DNA from: Nitrospirota bacterium
GTDB lineage: Bacteria; Nitrospirota; Leptospirillia; Leptospirillales; Leptospirillaceae
Assembly (NCBI GenBank): GCA_023481175.1
Contig: JAMCWM010000024.1
Coordinates: 1-64,000, forward strand
DNA length: 64,000 bases
Direction of reading: 5' to 3'
Within the stretch, counting starts at the first letter, position 1, and the number at the start of each line of letters is the position of its first letter. A model generated the notes under the pieces. The model did not search any database. It worked only from the letters and a program-made list of their open reading frames with translations, and was not told where the DNA came from. The translations under genes were made by a program, and so were the position numbers. Positions 8,367-49,870 of the stretch are shown here, piece after piece.

Positions 8367-9716
8367 TTAGGAAATCACCCCCTCGAGCCCCGCCTTCGTG
8401 CAGGAACGGACCATGACAGAAACGATCTCTCCCGGTTCCGGAAGTGGCCGGTCTGACGACCTTCCGGCCCGGACGTGGCGGAATTGGGGAGATCGGCCCG
8501 ACACTCGTCCCATCGTGGAATCGACCCGCTCCACGAGGATTTCCTGAAGACGTCCTACCTGGCTCCTGTTCTTTTCGAGAATCAGGGCGTCGAGACGTTC
8601 TTCAAGTCGACGGAAGCGGGTCACCGAGACCTCCCGGGGAGGCATGTCAGTCCAGCCGTGGGCCGGTGTCCCGGGCCTGGGGGAGTATATGAAACAGAAG
8701 GCGCCGTCGAAGCGGAATTCTTCCACCACCCGGAGGGTCGCCTCGAAATCCTCCTCCGTTTCTCCGCAGAACCCGACAATCAGATCGGTGGTCAGGGCCA
8801 CGTGGGGGACGGCGTTCCGCAATCGTGAGATCCAGGTCCGATAGAGGTCGAGGGAATACCCCCGGTCCATCCGGGACAGGAGGGCATCCGAACCGGACTG
8901 CACCGGCAGATGGAGATGAGGCATGACCTTTTCGCACTCTTTCATCGCCGCGATCATTCCCTCGTCCATATCGGAAGGATGGGAGGTGGTGAAGCGGATT
9001 CTCCGGAGACCCTCCACGGCATTGACGGCCCGAAGAAGGTCTCCGAAGGACTCTCCCGATCCGGAATTTTTTCCGTACCCGTTGACATTCTGGCCAAGGA
9101 GTGTGACCTCCCGATATCCCGCCGCCACAAGCTCCCGGATCTCCTCCACGATTGCGGCGACCGGACGGCTCCGTTCCCGTCCGCGCGTCCGGGGCACGAC
9201 GCAGTAGGCGCAGGTCTTGTCGCAGCCCTCCTGCACGGTCACGAGGGCCGTGACCCCCGGGGGCCTTATGGCCGGTGGGGTCGTCATCTCGGGGAGATCA
9301 TAGCTCCGTCCCAGGAGAACACCCTTGGCCCCCGCTCTGGATCGAATGTCTCCCAGCATAAGAATCAGGTTCCTGACCTGCGAAGGACCTGCGATCAGAT
9401 CTATTTCCGGCATGAGCCGGTGGAGGTTCTCCTGTTCCCGTTCGGCCATGCATCCGGTGACCGCGAGCACCACCGATCCGTTCTCTTTTTTGTGCTGTCG
9501 CAATCGTCCGAGATCGGAGAGCGCTTTCTGATCGGCCTTGTCCCGGACCGTGCAGGTATTGACCAGGATCACCGAGGCCAGGGCGGGATCATCGACGGGC
9601 CGAAATCCCGCTTCGGCCATGAGACCGGACATTCGTTCCGAGTCGTGGACATTCATCTGGCATCCGAAGGTGCGGATATAATAAGTATCGGAAAGGAGGC
9701 GGGATTCGTCGGCCAT
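8367..9716 (-). CDS. miaB: tRNA-2-methylthio-N6-dimethylallyladenosine synthase
   Basis: MiaB methylthiolates i6A37 of tRNAs using two Fe-S clusters and SAM. The 449-residue protein has the N-terminal UPF0004 cysteines (FGCQMN, NTCTVR, TGCMAE), the radical-SAM triad CDKTCAYC near residue 150, and a C-terminal TRAM-like segment, all in normal order and length. The ATG at 9716 has AAGGAAGA eight bases upstream; the open frame continues 90 codons further but carries no homology. It lies downstream of a DUF5069 gene on the same strand (43 nt). Confidence 0.93.
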   Translation of the reverse strand: MADESRLLSDTYYIRTFGCQMNVHDSERMSGLMAEAGFRPVDDPALASVILVNTCTVRDKADQKALSDLGRLRQHKKENGSVVLAVTGCMAEREQENLHRLMPEIDLIAGPSQVRNLILMLGDIRSRAGAKGVLLGRSYDLPEMTTPPAIRPPGVTALVTVQEGCDKTCAYCVVPRTRGRERSRPVAAIVEEIRELVAAGYREVTLLGQNVNGYGKNSGSGESFGDLLRAVNAVEGLRRIRFTTSHPSDMDEGMIAAMKECEKVMPHLHLPVQSGSDALLSRMDRGYSLDLYRTWISRLRNAVPHVALTTDLIVGFCGETEEDFEATLRVVEEFRFDGAFCFIYSPRPGTPAHGWTDMPPREVSVTRFRRLEERLDALILEKNRSQVGRLQEILVERVDSTMGRVSGRSPQFRHVRAGRSSDRPLPEPGEIVSVMVRSCTKAGLEGVIS

Positions 9717-9759
9717 CAATCGGTCTTCCTTTGAAAGTGTGGAGTTTGTGACCTCATGG

Positions 9760-10110
9760 TCAGAGGCGTCCCTCGTCCCTGTCCTGGTCGTCCAAAAGCC
9801 GGCTGTGTCGGACCAGGAAGACGTCGAATCCCATCCAGTCTCCGGGTCCCAGGGACGAGATTTTAAGTGAAAGGATTCGGAGAACGTCCTCGTCCCCGGA
9901 TGCGGTCGCAAGAATTTCGAGAAACTCTCCCGGGGAGAGATCGAGTCTCCGCAGAATCTCCTCGTCCATCGGGCAGGGAAAGACATACTCCCCCAACGTG
10001 CCGGAAAGCCGCATCCGGGCCTTGTCCATCGCCCGGGCGAGCCAGGGAATTCCCATCAGAAGTGTCCGCCCGCTCCGCGGAAGAGTGGGAGCGCCTGTCT
10101 TGCCGCTCAA
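9760..10110 (-). CDS. DUF5069 domain protein
   Basis: A 116-residue protein matching the DUF5069 pattern: LARAMDKARMRLSGTLGEYVFPCPMDEE is split here across residues 24-51, followed by LDLSPGEFLEILA. The family is small, cytoplasmic and of unknown function. Its start codon overlaps the stop of the upstream methyltransferase (ATGA), so the two are probably co-translated. No membrane or signal segment is seen. Confidence 0.75.
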   Translation of the reverse strand: MSGKTGAPTLPRSGRTLLMGIPWLARAMDKARMRLSGTLGEYVFPCPMDEEILRRLDLSPGEFLEILATASGDEDVLRILSLKISSLGPGDWMGFDVFLVRHSRLLDDQDRDEGRL

Positions 10111-10730
10111 TCCGTCAGTGCCTCCACCACATAATGATAGGGATAGAGGTCGTGGGAGCGGATCCTCGTGAATCCTGCATCGATCAGAAGGTCATAGAGT
10201 GACACTTCGGACGCCCGCTCGTCACCCGGCGGTCCCACAGGTGTCTCCTCCTTTTTCCAGTCGATGACAAAAAACTGACCCGCGGGCTCAAGAATCCGGA
10301 AGACCTCGCCGATCATCTCCCGGGGATGGGAGAGTTCGTGATAGACATTCGCCATCCAGACGAGAGAAATCGATCCGTTTGGAAGATCAATCCGATCTTT
10401 TGTCCCGACGATCGTCCGGACATGGAGATCCCGGCTCCGTTTTATTCGTTCAGACTCGAAGTGCTCGATCATCTCCGGCTGAAGCTCGATGGCGTGGCAG
10501 GTGCCTCGCCCGGAAAGGAATTCGCAGAGAGGAAAAAAGAAATACCCCGATCCCGTCCCGATCTCGGCCGCATCCCCGTGTTCATAGGAGCGGATCAGGG
10601 GGATGAGCCGGGCAGGATCCTGATAGGAAAGACGTTCGGGATCGTCAAGCTTTGCCACATGCCGATGGTCAAAGAGATGGGCCAAGAGGTCCTCCTTGAT
10701 GTTGGATATTCGCGGTCCCCTTCCTGTCAT
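10107..10730 (-). CDS. Class I SAM-dependent methyltransferase
   Basis: The 207-residue protein has the SAM-binding motif I AAEIGTGSGYFFFPL near residue 54, an acidic motif II (HAIELQPEM) and the post-motif VWMANVYHEL typical of Methyltransf_11/25 proteins. It is soluble with no extra domain, and the substrate cannot be told from sequence. It heads a small minus-strand unit with the DUF5069 gene and miaB, and is divergent from lptF (115 nt apart). Confidence 0.8.
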   Translation of the reverse strand: MTGRGPRISNIKEDLLAHLFDHRHVAKLDDPERLSYQDPARLIPLIRSYEHGDAAEIGTGSGYFFFPLCEFLSGRGTCHAIELQPEMIEHFESERIKRSRDLHVRTIVGTKDRIDLPNGSISLVWMANVYHELSHPREMIGEVFRILEPAGQFFVIDWKKEETPVGPPGDERASEVSLYDLLIDAGFTRIRSHDLYPYHYVVEALTD

Positions 10731-10845
10731 TCTACACCAAACCTTCGGCCCTGTTCACTCGGCAGGAAGAAGTCCCTGCAGAAGAAGCCTGATTTTGTGG
10801 TAAGATTTTCGGCTTGAGTTCACATTCTCTGACCCGGGGTCCACT

Positions 10846-11982
10846 ATGAAAATCATCCACAGATATCTCTTCCTTGAACTTCTGACCCCGTTCTTCCTGA
10901 GCCTGTTTGTCCTTGTGATCCTTCTTCTGACCCAGCAGGCCCTCATGATCATGAACCTTCTGGTCAACAAGGGGCTCTCCGTCGAGACGGTTTTCCGTCT
11001 TCTGGCGATGATTTTCCCGCAGTTCCTCAGCATGATCATTCCCGTCTCGGTCCTCACCGCCTCGACCGCCACCTTTCACAGGCTGGCTTCCGACGGAGAG
11101 ATCATCGCCTTCAAGGCCTCCGGAATCTCCCTCTCCCGCCTTCTCCTGCCGCTCCTTCTCTTTGCCGCCATCGGGTTTGGGACAAACTTCTACCTCTCTC
11201 TCAAGGCCATGGAAACCCAGGGACTCTCCCTCCAGGACCTTCTCGTGAGAGTCTTCCAGAAAAAGCTCTCCCTGGCCATCAAGCCCCAGTCCTTCAATAA
11301 TTTCATGGGGCGCTTCATCATCTATGTCGAGAAAATGCCCACGCTCTCCCATCTCGACGGGGTCTTCATTTATCAGAAAGGAAAAAGACCAGGAGCGAGC
11401 ACTGTCATCTTCTCCCGAGCCGGCGACCTGCTGAACGAACAGCATCCACCCGGCCTTCGCCTCAAGCTGTCGAACGGAACCCTCCTTCAGAAGGGAGCGG
11501 CTCTGCAATATATCCGTTTCGAATCCTACGACCTGACCATCCTTGGCAAACACACCGATGATCATATCCGGGTCAAGAGCATCGGCGAGATCCGGGCCGA
11601 GATCCGGGCCTCCCCCCACCCCGATCCCTCTCTCTTCCGGGCCCTGGAGGACCGCTACAAGAACTACACATACCCGTTTTCCTGCTTTTTCTTCGCCTTT
11701 CTGGGAATCCCCTACGGCATCTATACGATGCGCTCGGGCAGACTGGCCGGTTTCGTCTTCGCGACGGTCACCATCATCCTCTTTTACATGATGAACACCC
11801 TCGACGACCTGATGGTCGCCAAGGGTCTAATCTCCCCCGTTGCCGCCGCCGTGGCCCCGGATATTGTTCTGGCCCTCCTCATGGTCTTTCTGCTGACACT
11901 CGTCTTCCGCGAGGTGGACATCCGGGCCTATCTGCCGAGGATTTCCCTCACCGGACTCTTCAGGAGAGGAGGTCGCCCATGA
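10846..11982 (+). CDS. lptF: LPS export ABC transporter permease LptF
   Basis: A YjgP/YjgQ-family permease of the LptBFG complex, which extracts lipopolysaccharide from the inner membrane and feeds the Lpt bridge. The 378-residue protein begins MKIIHRYLFLELL, the usual LptF opening, with about three membrane helices at each end and a periplasmic jelly-roll region (about residues 130-260) between. Its stop overlaps the start of lptG by four bases. Its presence implies a diderm cell with LPS. Confidence 0.92.
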   Translation: MKIIHRYLFLELLTPFFLSLFVLVILLLTQQALMIMNLLVNKGLSVETVFRLLAMIFPQFLSMIIPVSVLTASTATFHRLASDGEIIAFKASGISLSRLLLPLLLFAAIGFGTNFYLSLKAMETQGLSLQDLLVRVFQKKLSLAIKPQSFNNFMGRFIIYVEKMPTLSHLDGVFIYQKGKRPGASTVIFSRAGDLLNEQHPPGLRLKLSNGTLLQKGAALQYIRFESYDLTILGKHTDDHIRVKSIGEIRAEIRASPHPDPSLFRALEDRYKNYTYPFSCFFFAFLGIPYGIYTMRSGRLAGFVFATVTIILFYMMNTLDDLMVAKGLISPVAAAVAPDIVLALLMVFLLTLVFREVDIRAYLPRISLTGLFRRGGRP

Positions 11983-13067
11983 GAATACTCACGCGACACC
12001 TTCTGGGAGAATACCTCAAGATCTATTTTCTCTCCCTTGTTTCGCTCGAAGCCATCTATCTCGTCATCGACTCGGTCGAAAAGATCAAGAATTTTCTTTC
12101 CCATCATGCTCCCTGGTCCTTGATGGGCGAGTTCTTCGCCTGGCGCTCGGTCGAAGTGGGCTTCCGGGTCATTCCCATGTCGGCACTTCTCGCCACCATT
12201 CTGGCCTTGGGAATTGCCTCAAAGAACCACGAAATCACGGCAATCAAGGCCGCCGGCATCAGCCTCAGGAGGGCAACCTTTCCCATCCTCCTGATCGGTC
12301 TTCTCCTTTCCGGGATCGAGCTTCTTCTCAATCTCTGGATGGTTCCTCACGCCTACCAGATGACGGACGTCATCATGGAGGAACGCATCAACCATGGAAG
12401 AAACTGGTCGAGCACCGTTCGAAAGAATGTCTGGTTCAGACACGGCTCCCGGGAAATCTTCCGGATCTCACAAATACGGGAAGGAGGACGGGCCCTGGAG
12501 GGCGTCACCATCTATCACCGGAACGCCCAGAACGAGCTTCACTGGTCGATTACCGCCAAAAGCCTCCGCTTCGAGGATGGACAATGGAACTTCCACCAAG
12601 GTGTGCGGACAGTCTTCCACACCGATGGAACGCTCACCGCCACTCCTTTTCCCCTCCGCCCCTTTCCGCTGGACCGGCGTCCGGAGGATTTCTTCATCCG
12701 CAAAACCCACCTCTCCCACCTGACCTTCTCCGAACTCGGACGGTACATCGATCTCATGCGCGCCAACCGTCTTCCCCATACCAACTTCACCGTCCTGCGC
12801 GATGGAGTCATCGCCTTTCCGGCCGCTTCCTTCCTGATGGTTCTCTTTGCCATCCCTTTCGGGATCAGGGAGGGGCGCCAGGTCGGAATCGCCCGGGGAT
12901 TCGGGGTGGCGCTTCTCCTCTCTCTGGCCTACTGGACCCTCTACTCCATGGGACTTGCCCTGGGGAGGGGAGGAGTCGTCCCTCCTCTCCTCGCGGCCTG
13001 GTTTGCCAATATCGTCGTTCTTATGGTAGGTCTGGGACTTCTCTCCTCCATGAACCGGGTTTCGTAA
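11979..13067 (+). CDS. lptG: LPS export ABC transporter permease LptG
   Basis: The second permease of the LptBFG extractor, 362 residues, with the same architecture as LptF: N-terminal helices, a periplasmic domain (about 130-250) and C-terminal helices containing FAIPFGIREGRQ. It overlaps lptF by ATGA, so the two subunits are probably made in equal amounts. The genes for LptB and the bridge proteins are not in the window. Confidence 0.9.
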   Translation: MRILTRHLLGEYLKIYFLSLVSLEAIYLVIDSVEKIKNFLSHHAPWSLMGEFFAWRSVEVGFRVIPMSALLATILALGIASKNHEITAIKAAGISLRRATFPILLIGLLLSGIELLLNLWMVPHAYQMTDVIMEERINHGRNWSSTVRKNVWFRHGSREIFRISQIREGGRALEGVTIYHRNAQNELHWSITAKSLRFEDGQWNFHQGVRTVFHTDGTLTATPFPLRPFPLDRRPEDFFIRKTHLSHLTFSELGRYIDLMRANRLPHTNFTVLRDGVIAFPAASFLMVLFAIPFGIREGRQVGIARGFGVALLLSLAYWTLYSMGLALGRGGVVPPLLAAWFANIVVLMVGLGLLSSMNRVS

Positions 13068-45948: not shown

Positions 45949-46567
45949 AGATTTTTTATTGACCCGAGAATCCCTGCTGGTACGCGAAAAAAAGGAGATG
46001 CGACGGGGGCTCGTGGCACGCCGCGACGCGCTTCCGAAAGAGGAACGGAAACGCCACTCCCTGACGGCGGGAAACCATGCCCTCTCCCTGATCCGGAAAG
46101 TCCGCCTGGAAAGGGAAGGATCATTCGCCCTCGTCATTTTTCTCTCCTTCGGGAGCGAAATCGATACCCGTCCCGTCATCTCGGGGCTGTTTGCGGAAAA
46201 TTCTCCGGACCTTCTCCTCCTTCTGCCCTCCCTCCGCCGGTCGAAGGAGATCGTCCTCCGTCCCTGGAGAAAAGATGATCCCCTGACTCCGGGTCCTTTC
46301 GGAATTCTGGAGCCTGAGACCCGGGAATCCGTTTCCCCTGGGGAGGTGGATCTTTTTATTCTTCCTGGAGTGGGCTTCGACCGGGCCGGGCACCGGCTCG
46401 GGTACGGAAGGGGATATTACGACAGGCTGCTCTCCCGGAGCGGAGTCGGAGGACTCCGGGCAGGCCTCGCCTTTTCGGAACAGGTGGTTCCGGAGATCCC
46501 GTCCGGACCCGGCGATATTCCCGTCCAGTATCTTGTGACCGAGAAGGGATGGGTCGCCTGTGGTTGA
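45938..46567 (+). CDS. 5-formyltetrahydrofolate cyclo-ligase
   Basis: Converts 5-formyl-THF to 5,10-methenyl-THF with ATP. From the GTG at 45938 the product has 209 residues with FLSFGSEIDTRPVI, the loop VDLFILPGVGFDR, and the signature RLGYGRGYYDRLLS. The GTG has AGGAGAT upstream and lies within the amidase 3' end; an ATG at 45998 would also keep the fold. It overlaps folE by eight bases, building a folate operon. Confidence 0.88.
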   Translation: MSPEDFLLTRESLLVREKKEMRRGLVARRDALPKEERKRHSLTAGNHALSLIRKVRLEREGSFALVIFLSFGSEIDTRPVISGLFAENSPDLLLLLPSLRRSKEIVLRPWRKDDPLTPGPFGILEPETRESVSPGEVDLFILPGVGFDRAGHRLGYGRGYYDRLLSRSGVGGLRAGLAFSEQVVPEIPSGPGDIPVQYLVTEKGWVACG

Positions 46568-47123
46568 TCAGGACAAGATCGAGGCCGGGTTCCGGATGGT
46601 CCTCGAAGGGCTCGGGGAAGACCTGGAGCGCCCGGGACTCAGGGAGACTCCCAGAAGGATCGCCGTCCTTTTTGCCGATCTTTTTTCAGGTTTGTCTCAG
46701 ACTCCTTCGGAGAGCCTCTCTCTGATCGAGGGTGAGAGCTTCGACGAGATGATCGTTCTGAAAAAACTTCCTTTCTACTCGATGTGCGAACACCATTTCC
46801 TTCCTTTTTTCGGCCATGCGAGCATCGGATATATTCCCGACAACGGACGGATGACCGGACTCTCTGATCTTGGACGCGTGGTGGAGATCTTTGCGCGCCG
46901 GGCTCAGATCCAGGAGCGGATGACAAGCCAGATCGCCGACTGCCTTATGGAGACCCTGACGCCCCAGGGAGCCATGGTCATCCTCGAGGCGGAGCACCTC
47001 TGCCTTTCGATGCGCGGGCTCAAGAAACCCGGAGTTCCAGTCGTCACCAGCGCGGTCCGGGGCATTTTCCTGAAAAACGCCAAGACGAGACAGGAACTTC
47101 TCTCCCTTATTCGCTCTTCCTGA
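46560..47123 (+). CDS. folE: GTP cyclohydrolase I
   Basis: FolE turns GTP into dihydroneopterin triphosphate, the entry to folate. The 187-residue protein has a GTG start overlapping the previous gene. Zinc ligands are Cys76 and His79 in MCEHHFLPFFGHAS and Cys148 in [11 protein letters not shown]; the GTP pocket is complete. It is full-length despite a 248-base duplication of its 3' end (from Arg114 to past the stop) that reappears at 48695. In the ancestral order its stop should have faced the EamA gene directly. Confidence 0.95.
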   Translation: MVDQDKIEAGFRMVLEGLGEDLERPGLRETPRRIAVLFADLFSGLSQTPSESLSLIEGESFDEMIVLKKLPFYSMCEHHFLPFFGHASIGYIPDNGRMTGLSDLGRVVEIFARRAQIQERMTSQIADCLMETLTPQGAMVILEAEHLCLSMRGLKKPGVPVVTSAVRGIFLKNAKTRQELLSLIRSS

Positions 47124-47144
47124 GCTGGCCTTTTTCCCCTCCGA
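46897..47144. repeat. 248-bp direct repeat, copy A (folE 3' end)
   Basis: Bases 46897-47144 are identical to 48695-48942 by direct comparison (constant offset 1,798). The identity begins at GCCGGGCTC and ends at CCCTCCGA; on each side the sequences differ at once. This copy belongs to the intact folE gene. Confidence 0.97.
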
Positions 47145-47305
47145 TGGAAGGCTTTTTCTCCGCAAAAGAATTTTGTCAGCGTCCCAAGTATTATAAGTAT
47201 TGCGGTGTCTGGTTCAATATGGGTGCACTAGAGGAGGATTGGATTCTCGAAAGCGACAGGCCAAACCCTTTGACAGAAATAGAGAAGAGGGACAACGATG
47301 GATGA
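47144..47305 (+). pseudogene. 3' remnant of an unknown gene upstream of the ATPase
   Basis: A frame open from the repeat junction reads MEGFFSAKEFCQRPKYYKYC and on to a TGA at 47303-47305 (53 codons from an ATG at the junction). The ATG has no ribosome site, and its first base is the last base of the folE repeat, so this is more likely the tail of a longer gene cut at the junction than a small protein. The stop overlaps the ATPase start (ATGGATGA), as expected for two co-translated genes. Aromatic- and lysine-rich text with two Cys, then an acidic tail; family not recognised. Confidence 0.5.
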
Positions 47306-48512
47306 ATCGAGCAAAAACAAGAGTCCTTTTTATCCGGGGCAACCTGTCCCTGCAGAACTTTTTACTGGTCGCCAAGAAGTGATTGAACGAATTTTGACGC
47401 GAGGAGCTGGCCAAGTCGTTCAAGGGAAACCTATGTCATTTTTTATTCAGGGAGAATATGGCATTGGAAAGAGTTCTCTTGCTAGCTACCTTCAAAACAT
47501 AGTGGAGAAAGAATATTCATTACACAGCATATATGTTTCACTAAGTGGGGTGCATGATCTCCAGGGTGTTTCCGAAGCCATCTTACAAGCAACAGTCCGA
47601 TCAGGCGCACTCGACCCCCGTATATCCGAGAAGATTAATAGTTGGTTGTCGAAGTATATTGGAAAACAGCAGTTATTCGGCTTGACCCTTAATCTGGAAG
47701 CTTTGAAAAAAGATAACCCTTCGGTAACCTCATATTTAGGAATCCTTGATTTTTTGAGGGAAACTCTCTCGAAAATGAGGGACTTAGGCACCAAGGGACT
47801 TTTTCTTGTATTTGATGAAATCAACGGAATAGCCTCTCAGCCTGAGTTCGCGAGTTTCCTCAAGGGATTGGTGGACCAGAACGCTCTTTCAAAAAAACCC
47901 TTGCCCATTCTACTCATGCTTTGCAGTACCGAAGATCGCCGAGTCGAACTCATAAAAAGCTCCGAACCTTTGGGAAGAATTTTCGATGTCATTACGATTA
48001 AACCCATGACGGAAAAAGAAATGGAGGATTTTTTCAACAAAGCCTTCAATTCTGTGCATATGACAGTCGAAAAGGATGCTCTTTCCATCCTCACATATTA
48101 TTCAGCGGGGTTTCCAAAGATTATGCATTTAGTGGGAGATATGGCCTATTGGATTGACAAAGACCAAATTGTTGATATGAAAGATACACATGACGCTGTC
48201 ATTGCTGCCGCTGAAGACTTTGGGAAAAAATATGTCAATGCTCAGATATATGATGCACTCAAAAGCGAAGATTATAGAAGTATATTGGCAAAGATTGGAA
48301 AGGAAGGTCCCGACAGTATGAGTTTCAAAAAATCGGACATCGGAAATCTTTTGACAGAACAGGAGAAGAAGAAGTTCCACAATTTCTTACAAAAGATGAA
48401 GCGATTGAATGTTCTACATTCAGGAAACGAACGTGGAGAATACATATTTAATTTACGAATGGTGAGATTGTATATCTGGCTTCAAACAACAATCGAGTCA
48501 AAGGGTCGATAG
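47298..48512 (+). CDS. Orc1/Cdc6-like AAA+ ATPase with C-terminal winged helix
   Basis: A 404-residue ATPase with Walker [10 protein letters not shown] at 52-60, Walker B LFLVFDE at 168-174, a sensor-like [10 protein letters not shown] near 204-213, and a C-terminal winged-helix-like part (about 330-400). The overall plan resembles AAA_16/ATPase_2 proteins of the Orc1/Cdc6-STAND group. Base composition is clearly lower in GC than its neighbours, and it lies between two copies of the folE 3' end, so it was acquired. The upstream partner gene is truncated. Similar lone ATPases occur in mobile or defence loci, but no function can be assigned. Confidence 0.8.
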
Positions 48513-48517
48513 AAAAC

Positions 48518-48694
48518 GGGTGCGTGTTAGATTTTTGAGATCGCGCAGAAGACCGCCCATGACCGATCTTCACGCACATCTCCTTGCTGTACGCTGCTCG
48601 AAGAAGGCTTCGAGTCTTCCGCTAAGTTTTGCATATCGAAGCGCGATGATGGCATTGGCCCCCCTGAGGGTCCAGTGCATGCCGGACTGTTTGA
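48518..48694 (-). mobile_element. Right-end remnant of an ISKra4-family insertion sequence
   Basis: On the minus strand the frame from the repeat junction (48694) to TGA at 48570 reads [20 protein letters not shown] and continues [13 protein letters not shown]. This is the characteristic C-terminus of ISKra4-family transposases. The ~50 bases after the stop, ending GGG at 48518-48520, fit the IS right end, which would lie five bases from the ATPase stop. The rest of the transposase is missing, cut exactly where the folE repeat starts. Confidence 0.75.
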
Positions 48695-48921
48695 GCCGGG
48701 CTCAGATCCAGGAGCGGATGACAAGCCAGATCGCCGACTGCCTTATGGAGACCCTGACGCCCCAGGGAGCCATGGTCATCCTCGAGGCGGAGCACCTCTG
48801 CCTTTCGATGCGCGGGCTCAAGAAACCCGGAGTTCCAGTCGTCACCAGCGCGGTCCGGGGCATTTTCCTGAAAAACGCCAAGACGAGACAGGAACTTCTC
48901 TCCCTTATTCGCTCTTCCTGA
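48695..48921 (+). pseudogene. Duplicated folE 3' fragment
   Basis: The last ~74 codons of GTP cyclohydrolase I (from ARG114 on) without the N-terminal half, so it lacks the Cys76/His79 zinc ligands and cannot be active. An open frame reaches it from the IS remnant, giving a chimeric 133-codon ORF that should not be annotated as a gene. Confidence 0.9.
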
Positions 48922-48942
48922 GCTGGCCTTTTTCCCCTCCGA
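48695..48942. repeat. 248-bp direct repeat, copy B (folE 3' end)
   Basis: Perfect copy of 46897-47144. It joins directly to the truncated ISKra4 transposase on the left and runs into the EamA transporter gene on the right. The last codons of that transporter are encoded inside this repeat on the minus strand, so copy B marks the ancestral folE/EamA junction. Confidence 0.97.
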
Positions 48943-49870
48943 AGGCGACCATTCCCACTCCCAGAATGATCAGAAACGCCCCGGCCCCTTCACGGACATC
49001 CATTCTCTCTCCCAGGAAGATCGCCGCCATGACGAGCGTGACCACCGGCCCGAAAAACGACAGCAGTGCGGCGCGGCTTGCCCCGATGAGAGAGATTCCC
49101 GCGGTCATGAAAAAGGTGGGAAGAGCCGTCGAAAAGATTCCCATGATCCCGATCAGGAACAGAGCTCGCCCGTTCGCCTGGCCGGGATGGAAGGTTCCGG
49201 AAAAAATGGCCTGAAAGACAATGGCAGAAGTGGCGACCACCATCACAAGGGAGGTCAGATAGAGGGGATCCACCCTCCGGACAACTCTCTCCACCCCCAC
49301 AAGATAGACGGCATAGAAGATGCCGCTTCCGAGGACAAGAAGAACCCCCGCCCGCTCTCCCGCGTCGGATGCGACATGACCGCCCGTGATGACGAGGAGA
49401 CCTCCATAGGCCAGAAGGGATGAAAGAATTTCCCGAAGACCGATCCCCCTCCGCTTCATGAGGGCCGACAAAAAGATGACGAAGGTGGGATAGAGGAAGA
49501 GAACGAGGCGTTCGAGTCCCGCCCCGATCCGCAGGAGTCCGTCGAAGTCGAGAACGGCCGACAGGTCAAATCCCAGAAGCCCGAGAAGGACAACCTTCCA
49601 GAAGTCGGGATGCCGGAGGTCGGGACGCAGTCCTGGTCCTCTCCGCCCGAACCACACGAGGCCTGAAAGGTAGACGGGAAGGACCGACAGCATGCGCATG
49701 GAGAGGACGGTGGAGGGATTGAGCCCTTCCCCGTAGGCCATCTTGGCCAGGATTCCCTTGGCCGCAAAACCCGTTGCCGAGAGGAGGACAAGGATGATTC
49801 CCAGGGAAATGCGGGAGGGGAAGAGCCTTGTGGTTTGCCTGGGATTTCCGGACTCTTGAGAGAAGGACAT
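48905..49870 (-). CDS. EamA/DMT-superfamily transporter
   Basis: A 321-residue inner-membrane protein with ten predicted helices in two EamA repeats ([20 protein letters not shown] near the start; [21 protein letters not shown] in the second half). The first repeat of such proteins usually faces an unknown small metabolite exported or exchanged by proton coupling. It ends inside repeat copy B and would converge on folE by a 19-base overlap in the ancestral arrangement. Confidence 0.88.

Follow-up and report, generated by a model that had tools for sequence, protein, structure and literature searches.

The window analysed here, a 64,000-nt stretch of Nitrospirota DNA, carries an ATPase gene (47298-48512, + strand) that lies between the two copies of a long direct repeat and whose start is overlapped by a short open frame entering from the repeat junction. 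The first-pass annotation took this frame to be the clearly coding tail of a truncated gene, translationally coupled to the ATPase, and regarded the two as the remnant of a two-gene system. The locus raises the question of whether the ATPase gene is half of a broken operon or a unit of its own, and of how a piece of host sequence came to stand on both sides of it.

The product, 404 aa in length, was classified as an Orc1/Cdc6-STAND-type AAA+ ATPase with a C-terminal winged helix from its AAA_16 match, AlphaFold2 model, Foldseek hits and dN/dS. Walker A (residues 52-60), Walker B (LFLVFDE, residues 168-174) and the winged helix are all present, as the first-pass annotation had described. In Pfam, AAA_16 matched with E 2.5e-9 and 38.3 bits (gathering score 32.6), and the BrxC_BrxD and nSTAND1 matches were weak, below or near the cut-off. 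The AlphaFold2 model, built with 51 homologues, reached a pLDDT of 88.7 and consists of an AAA+ core and the C-terminal winged helix. A search by sequence for a solved structure gave no meaningful match. Foldseek placed P. abyssi PABY2304 and archaeal Orc1/Cdc6 first among the solved folds (E 1e-8 to 1e-10 against 1w5s, 2qby and 2v1u), followed by RuvB and NB-ARC proteins.

The protein shares the AAA+ core and winged helix with archaeal Orc1/Cdc6 and PABY2304-type Walker ATPases (2qen, 1w5s, 2qby), whereas identity to them is 11-17%, the ATPase is a lone bacterial gene without replication context, and its score with TIGR02928, the family of Orc1/Cdc6 initiators, is 14.7 bits against a cut-off of 181.3. 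With BREX BrxC/BrxD and the STAND/nSTAND NTPases it has the P-loop core (AAA_16) in common, but no BREX genes are adjacent and the BREX BrxD equivalog scored 22.3 bits against 350; moreover, the 404 aa contain neither an effector domain nor the C-terminal sensor repeats of STAND immune NTPases (Avs/NLR-like). Judged by these family scores and domains, the ATPase is neither an Orc1/Cdc6 protein, nor a BREX component, nor an Avs/NLR-type STAND protein.

The nearest homologue, in a genome of the same genus (G002), is 93% identical in amino acids and 90% in nucleotides. Between the two copies dN is 0.036, dS 0.46 and dN/dS 0.08, with 92 of the 123 differences at third positions, and the ATPase is a functional gene. 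A leader common to both copies (47242-47297, + strand) precedes the gene, and a ribosome-binding site, GAGGG at 47287-47291 (+ strand; GAGGA in G002), is found 6 nt before the ATG.

Scanning GTDB gave 311 encoding stretches, of which the best 80 were kept; nearly all of these 80 are from metagenome assemblies, and they are spread over about 20 phyla with 36-93% identity. Of 296 Nitrospirota genomes, 11 carry the gene. Its copies in Leptospirillum-type genomes occupy different sites, and several are broken: that of G014 is frameshifted, another on its contig C9 is a fragment, and a remnant in G009 (locus L020, contig C62, about 9646-11134) is split by an apparent ParD/ParE-type toxin-antitoxin pair. 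Comparison of close copies at unrelated sites delimited what they have in common, namely the gene and no more than some 75 nt of flanking DNA at each end. The copies of the window and G002 share DNA only from -56 to +6, so that the transferred unit would start at 47242, a non-syntenic Nitrospirae/Nitrospinota pair with 83% nucleotide identity only from -70 to +8, and another close non-syntenic pair only from -48 to +76. Since such copies have little beyond the gene in common, the moving unit is one gene. When G014 was compared with G018, homology ended on both sides before the gene and no clean junction was obtained. In the family tree we counted 41 phylum changes (minimum 20, shuffled 47.9), a count inflated by paralogy and mis-binning; the evidence from close pairs is independent of the tree. 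Between the window genome and G002, the ATPase has a dS of 0.46 and folE one of 1.15, and the GC content of the gene is 41% versus 58% for the window. Solitary state and horizontal spread are plain from these comparisons, and we take the ATPase gene to be a solitary, horizontally mobile one, one without a housekeeping role and possibly associated with defence. This agrees with the first-pass view of an Orc1/Cdc6-like ATPase that has no obvious housekeeping role and could belong to a defence or mobile-element module. The closest copy, in G002 (L015, contig C38), is adjoined by DUF6398 and SEC-C genes (10642-12750) in a flagellar gene region, a site that looks like an accessory-gene hotspot.

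In the window, the neighbours of the ATPase gene are folE and a DMT transporter gene. The former (GTP cyclohydrolase I; PF01227, E 4.5e-65; 46560-47123, + strand) is the intact host gene at the insertion site; in congeners it is single-copy and the DMT transporter gene follows directly. The repeat junction noted in the first pass is a perfect direct repeat of 251 bp with 100% identical copies on the + strand, and this pair is the only direct repeat of at least 30 bp reported in the 64 kb. The left copy (46897-47147), which is the native one, comprises the 3′ end of folE and about 24 bp beyond it, and the right copy (48695-48945) continues into the DMT transporter region. Between them lies an insert of 1547 bp (47148-48694, + strand), delimited by the repeat limits and absent from the folE-DMT junctions of congeners. 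Three relatives (G005, G007, G013) have the empty site, in which the sequence corresponding to 48695 and beyond leads without interruption from folE to the DMT gene. In two others (G001, G012) the DMT gene also comes after folE. Overall, the folE end is present once in 7 of 8 related (congener or family) loci.

The eighth locus, that of G009 (L124, contig C24, 6620-7320), has a rearrangement of its own, in which the folE 3′ end is duplicated as pieces of 89-93% identity with part deleted. Its insert of about 420 bp is without the ATPase, and the first codons read like the end of a zinc-ribbon transposase. We considered whether this duplication was an old ATPase insertion and rejected it, as the insert contains no trace of the gene. 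Given G009, the folE end may be prone to recombination by itself or be a recurrent place of insertion.

Inspection of the window insert revealed, besides the gene and its leader, no intact transposase or integrase and no defined ends. What it does contain, abutting the 3′ end of the ATPase gene, is a truncated IS (48517-48694, - strand) of which the terminal repeat and the final codons of a UPF0236-like transposase are left. This remnant is 86% and 84% identical to complete copies on contigs C54 and C46 of G000, whose transposase of 407 aa is UPF0236-like by a weak match (24.5 bits). By its content, the window feature is no transposon. The right end of the insert is the last 178 bp of an IS, joined to the folE copy at a 9-bp microhomology, GCCGGGCTC, common to both sequences; therefore, the ends of the insert are not the ends of an element here. 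The leftmost 94 bp of the insert gave no match.

To see how far this arrangement recurs, the two flanks of every ATPase homologue were compared with each other and the same test was performed on control open reading frames (ORFs). Of the 65 ATPase genes, 6 were flanked by tight direct repeats, compared with 3 of the 500 control ORFs (p = 1.2e-4) and none of 191 size-matched ORFs of the same loci. In the strict set the count is 4 of 65 (p = 0.004), so that the clean duplication cases are only four, taken from draft metagenome assemblies with mechanical ORF calls and one representative genome per species. Ten further ATPase loci were tested and none had repeats; hence the true rate is lower than 6/65, as would be expected if the repeats decay. 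Every strong repeat in the flanks is in direct orientation. That of L039 (68 bp, 98.5%) corresponds to the 3′ end, including the stop codon, of an ABC permease gene called wzm-like on the basis of its translation, and that of L101 (63 bp, 98%) comes from the 3′ end of an apparent host gene. In L056 the duplicated sequence (132 bp, 90%) belongs to the 5′ portion of a type III mod gene; a truncated piece of mod precedes the ATPase, and mod starts anew downstream of it. L060 and L068 were also positive, and their flanks are repeat-rich and less clean. The target is single in relatives for the wzm-like gene of L039 (7 loci) and for the mod of L056 (in G233).

The locus is probably to be read as one mobile gene and not as half of an operon: a gene-sized unit inserted into host operons with duplication of the target. 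The unit of about 1.3 kb would comprise the AAA+ ATPase gene with its own leader and ribosome-binding site, and would be passed between distant bacteria; that of the window would measure 1.55 kb because the IS piece came along. Each insertion into a host operon would duplicate tens to hundreds of bp of the target, 251 bp of folE in this case, so that one side would keep the host gene and the other a fragment of it. We infer that the repeats arose during insertion as duplications of the target, through a staggered break or template switching, and the 9-bp microhomology at the right junction would fit this. Against this reading, repeats surround only 6 of 65 members, two of them in repeat-rich flanks; nearly all sequences are from metagenome assemblies; the window insert is larger than a minimal one would be, having a truncated IS end and, on the left, the unmatched 94 bp; no conserved end sequence and no recombinase were found in the inserts; and the folE-end duplication of G009 surrounds an insert without the ATPase.

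Insertion of this kind has a precedent. According to reviews and papers of the Kobayashi group (PMC3874152, PMC3031569), some restriction-modification (R-M) systems are mobile without being linked to a mobile element, and their insertion is accompanied by long and variable duplications of the target, around 100 bp in size; the original Helicobacter pylori example is described in PMC1643837. These papers credit such insertions to Nobusato et al. (2000) and Furuta et al. (2010). The proposal that R-M genes move in this way dates from 2000, and the mechanism is left unexplained in all three papers (PMC3874152, PMC3031569, PMC1643837). The two cases resemble each other in being gene-sized and horizontally mobile, with no link to mobile elements and with long, variable direct target duplications (about 100 bp). 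In the ATPase family, host repeats surround the gene in the window (251 bp) and in three clean cases (63-132 bp), and the target occurs once in relatives for folE, the wzm-like gene and mod. They differ in that the cargo here is a single AAA+ ATPase, neither a methyltransferase nor a nuclease, and in that the R-M examples of these papers are from H. pylori whereas the ATPase family is found in unrelated bacterial groups. By analogy, the ATPase family would be a variant of the R-M type of insertion with a new, non-R-M gene as cargo. A second, unrelated gene family with the long-target-duplication signature, present in many phyla and about 1.3 kb in size, would offer a compact system for testing the mechanism, and a widespread uncharacterised ATPase is thereby nominated as a mobile, possibly defensive gene.

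The gene could instead be defence cargo without any mobility of its own, taken up as random fragments by transformation and joined by illegitimate recombination, with selection keeping those inserts that carry the gene and spare the host gene. We regard this as a serious possibility, though rather the less probable account. The insert ends do vary, from -38 to -175 upstream and from +2 to +182 downstream; they are not conserved, and a k-mer scan of the members for end motifs or inverted repeats was no better than shuffled; one junction shows microhomology; and the gene recurs in type III-like restriction operons. However, such repeats are lacking around similarly sized genes of these loci, and the upstream edge of the insert lies 40, 39 and 38 nt before the ATG in L039, L056 and L101, three unrelated members, which hints at a defined 5′ end.

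The neighbours bear on a role in defence. Immediate neighbours are mostly housekeeping genes, such as gatA/gatB, kds genes, EPSP synthase and others, and the ATPase gene is co-oriented with both neighbours in 34 of 62 cases (p = 5e-7 versus 25%). As most neighbours are housekeeping genes, they give no argument for defence. Five members (L033, L056, L081, L090 and G184) are part of type III-like R-M operons, of which that of G184 (L198, contig C58) has five genes in the order mod, ATPase, Schlafen/AlbA_2, res and TnsA-like nuclease; in the window, neither mod nor res adjoins the ATPase gene. Between L033 and G184, res is 91% and the nuclease 83% identical, but the ATPases are only 55% identical and nearest to different groups. 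Such near-identical operons with divergent ATPases indicate that the gene was probably recruited more than once. Recurrent recruitment suggests a shared function with the type III-like operons, which could alternatively be good landing places for the gene. A type III mod relative, as in L056, was rejected as a standing partner, the ATPase being absent beside the other 23 Nitrospirota mod matches. At L051 (6123-6893) and L064 (6526-7341), DUF5131 genes, PADLOC phage-defence candidates (PDC-M41B/M30B), come after the family member. None of the PADLOC families fits the ATPase itself, and this together with the housekeeping neighbours weighs against the defence part of the mobile-gene reading. A defence role is nevertheless plausible; more tentatively, the ATPase may bind DNA through its winged helix and act against foreign DNA, alone or with type III-like restriction enzymes.

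For the window itself, the repeat might have arisen when a chromosome with the insert and one without it recombined unequally at GCCGGGCTC, or it might be an assembly chimera of two strains. Both repeat copies are 100% identical, the right junction falls exactly on the IS/folE microhomology, the source genome is a draft (2.32 Mb in 55 contigs, 89% complete, 6% contaminated), and G009 carries another rearranged folE end. The arrangement recurs, with repeats of 63-132 bp, around homologues from three or more further, unrelated assemblies, and control genes are without it. Exchange or chimera is possible for the window, if unlikely, and provides no explanation for the other loci.

A stronger form of the mobile-gene reading would make the ATPase gene a minimal self-acting element, in which a lone AAA+ protein directs its own insertion, leaves long variable target duplications and sometimes recruits or joins type III-like operons; this we consider distinctly improbable. 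Still more doubtful is a replication initiator that persisted after plasmids or viruses of archaeal type had integrated. Methanobrevibacter smithii tailed virus 1 (MSTV1) does encode a homologue annotated as putative Orc1/Cdc6, with 28% identity over 96% of the length, and the fold matches archaeal Orc1/Cdc6; unlike the ATPase gene, the viral one lies in a virus genome beside putative DNA-binding genes. The inserts contain no other plasmid or viral genes, a pattern search of 2.9 million viral contigs found no relative, and the TIGR02928 score is far under its cut-off. A viral origin was rejected on the lack of viral-contig relatives; a phage and a plasmid gave one weak match each.

There is indeed a 53-codon open frame (47144-47305, + strand) that enters from the junction and stops inside the ATPase start, overlapping it (47298) at ATGGATGA. 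Its ATG is a product of the repeat junction. Over 47148-47302 one of three frames is open in the window, and at least one is open in 17% of dinucleotide shuffles. In the 90%-identical leader of G002, two 1-nt indels disrupt the frame and the rest of the leader DNA is conserved. No homologue of the tail was found by tblastn in about 80 ATPase loci (the best 80 of 311), an outcome that the first-pass annotation had itself named as refuting the two-gene system, nor did the tail match Pfam, NCBIfam or PADLOC. An upstream gene overlapping the ATPase is rare in the family (3 of 51). The tail described as clearly coding is thus judged a chance reading frame and no gene remnant. The ribosome-binding site that the ATPase possesses makes coupling an unnecessary assumption, and with the chance frame, the G002 indels and the absence of a tblastn match, coupling to a lost partner is left unsupported. 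No constant operon partner emerged either: the neighbours differ across the 80 loci, save the five type III-like R-M loci and two DUF5131 genes. That the ATPase once followed, in translational coupling, a gene of which some 50 codons are left, with the open frame and its overlap as the signs of it, can on these grounds be set aside as extremely improbable.

Directly before gatB, members of different phyla are found at L018 (4464-5693) and L072 (3520-4701), and in G055 the gene sits between gatA and gatB with hardly any gap. A truncated first gene, wrongly proposed for the window, is nearly right for L056, where the truncated mod fragment would have been made by the insertion itself.
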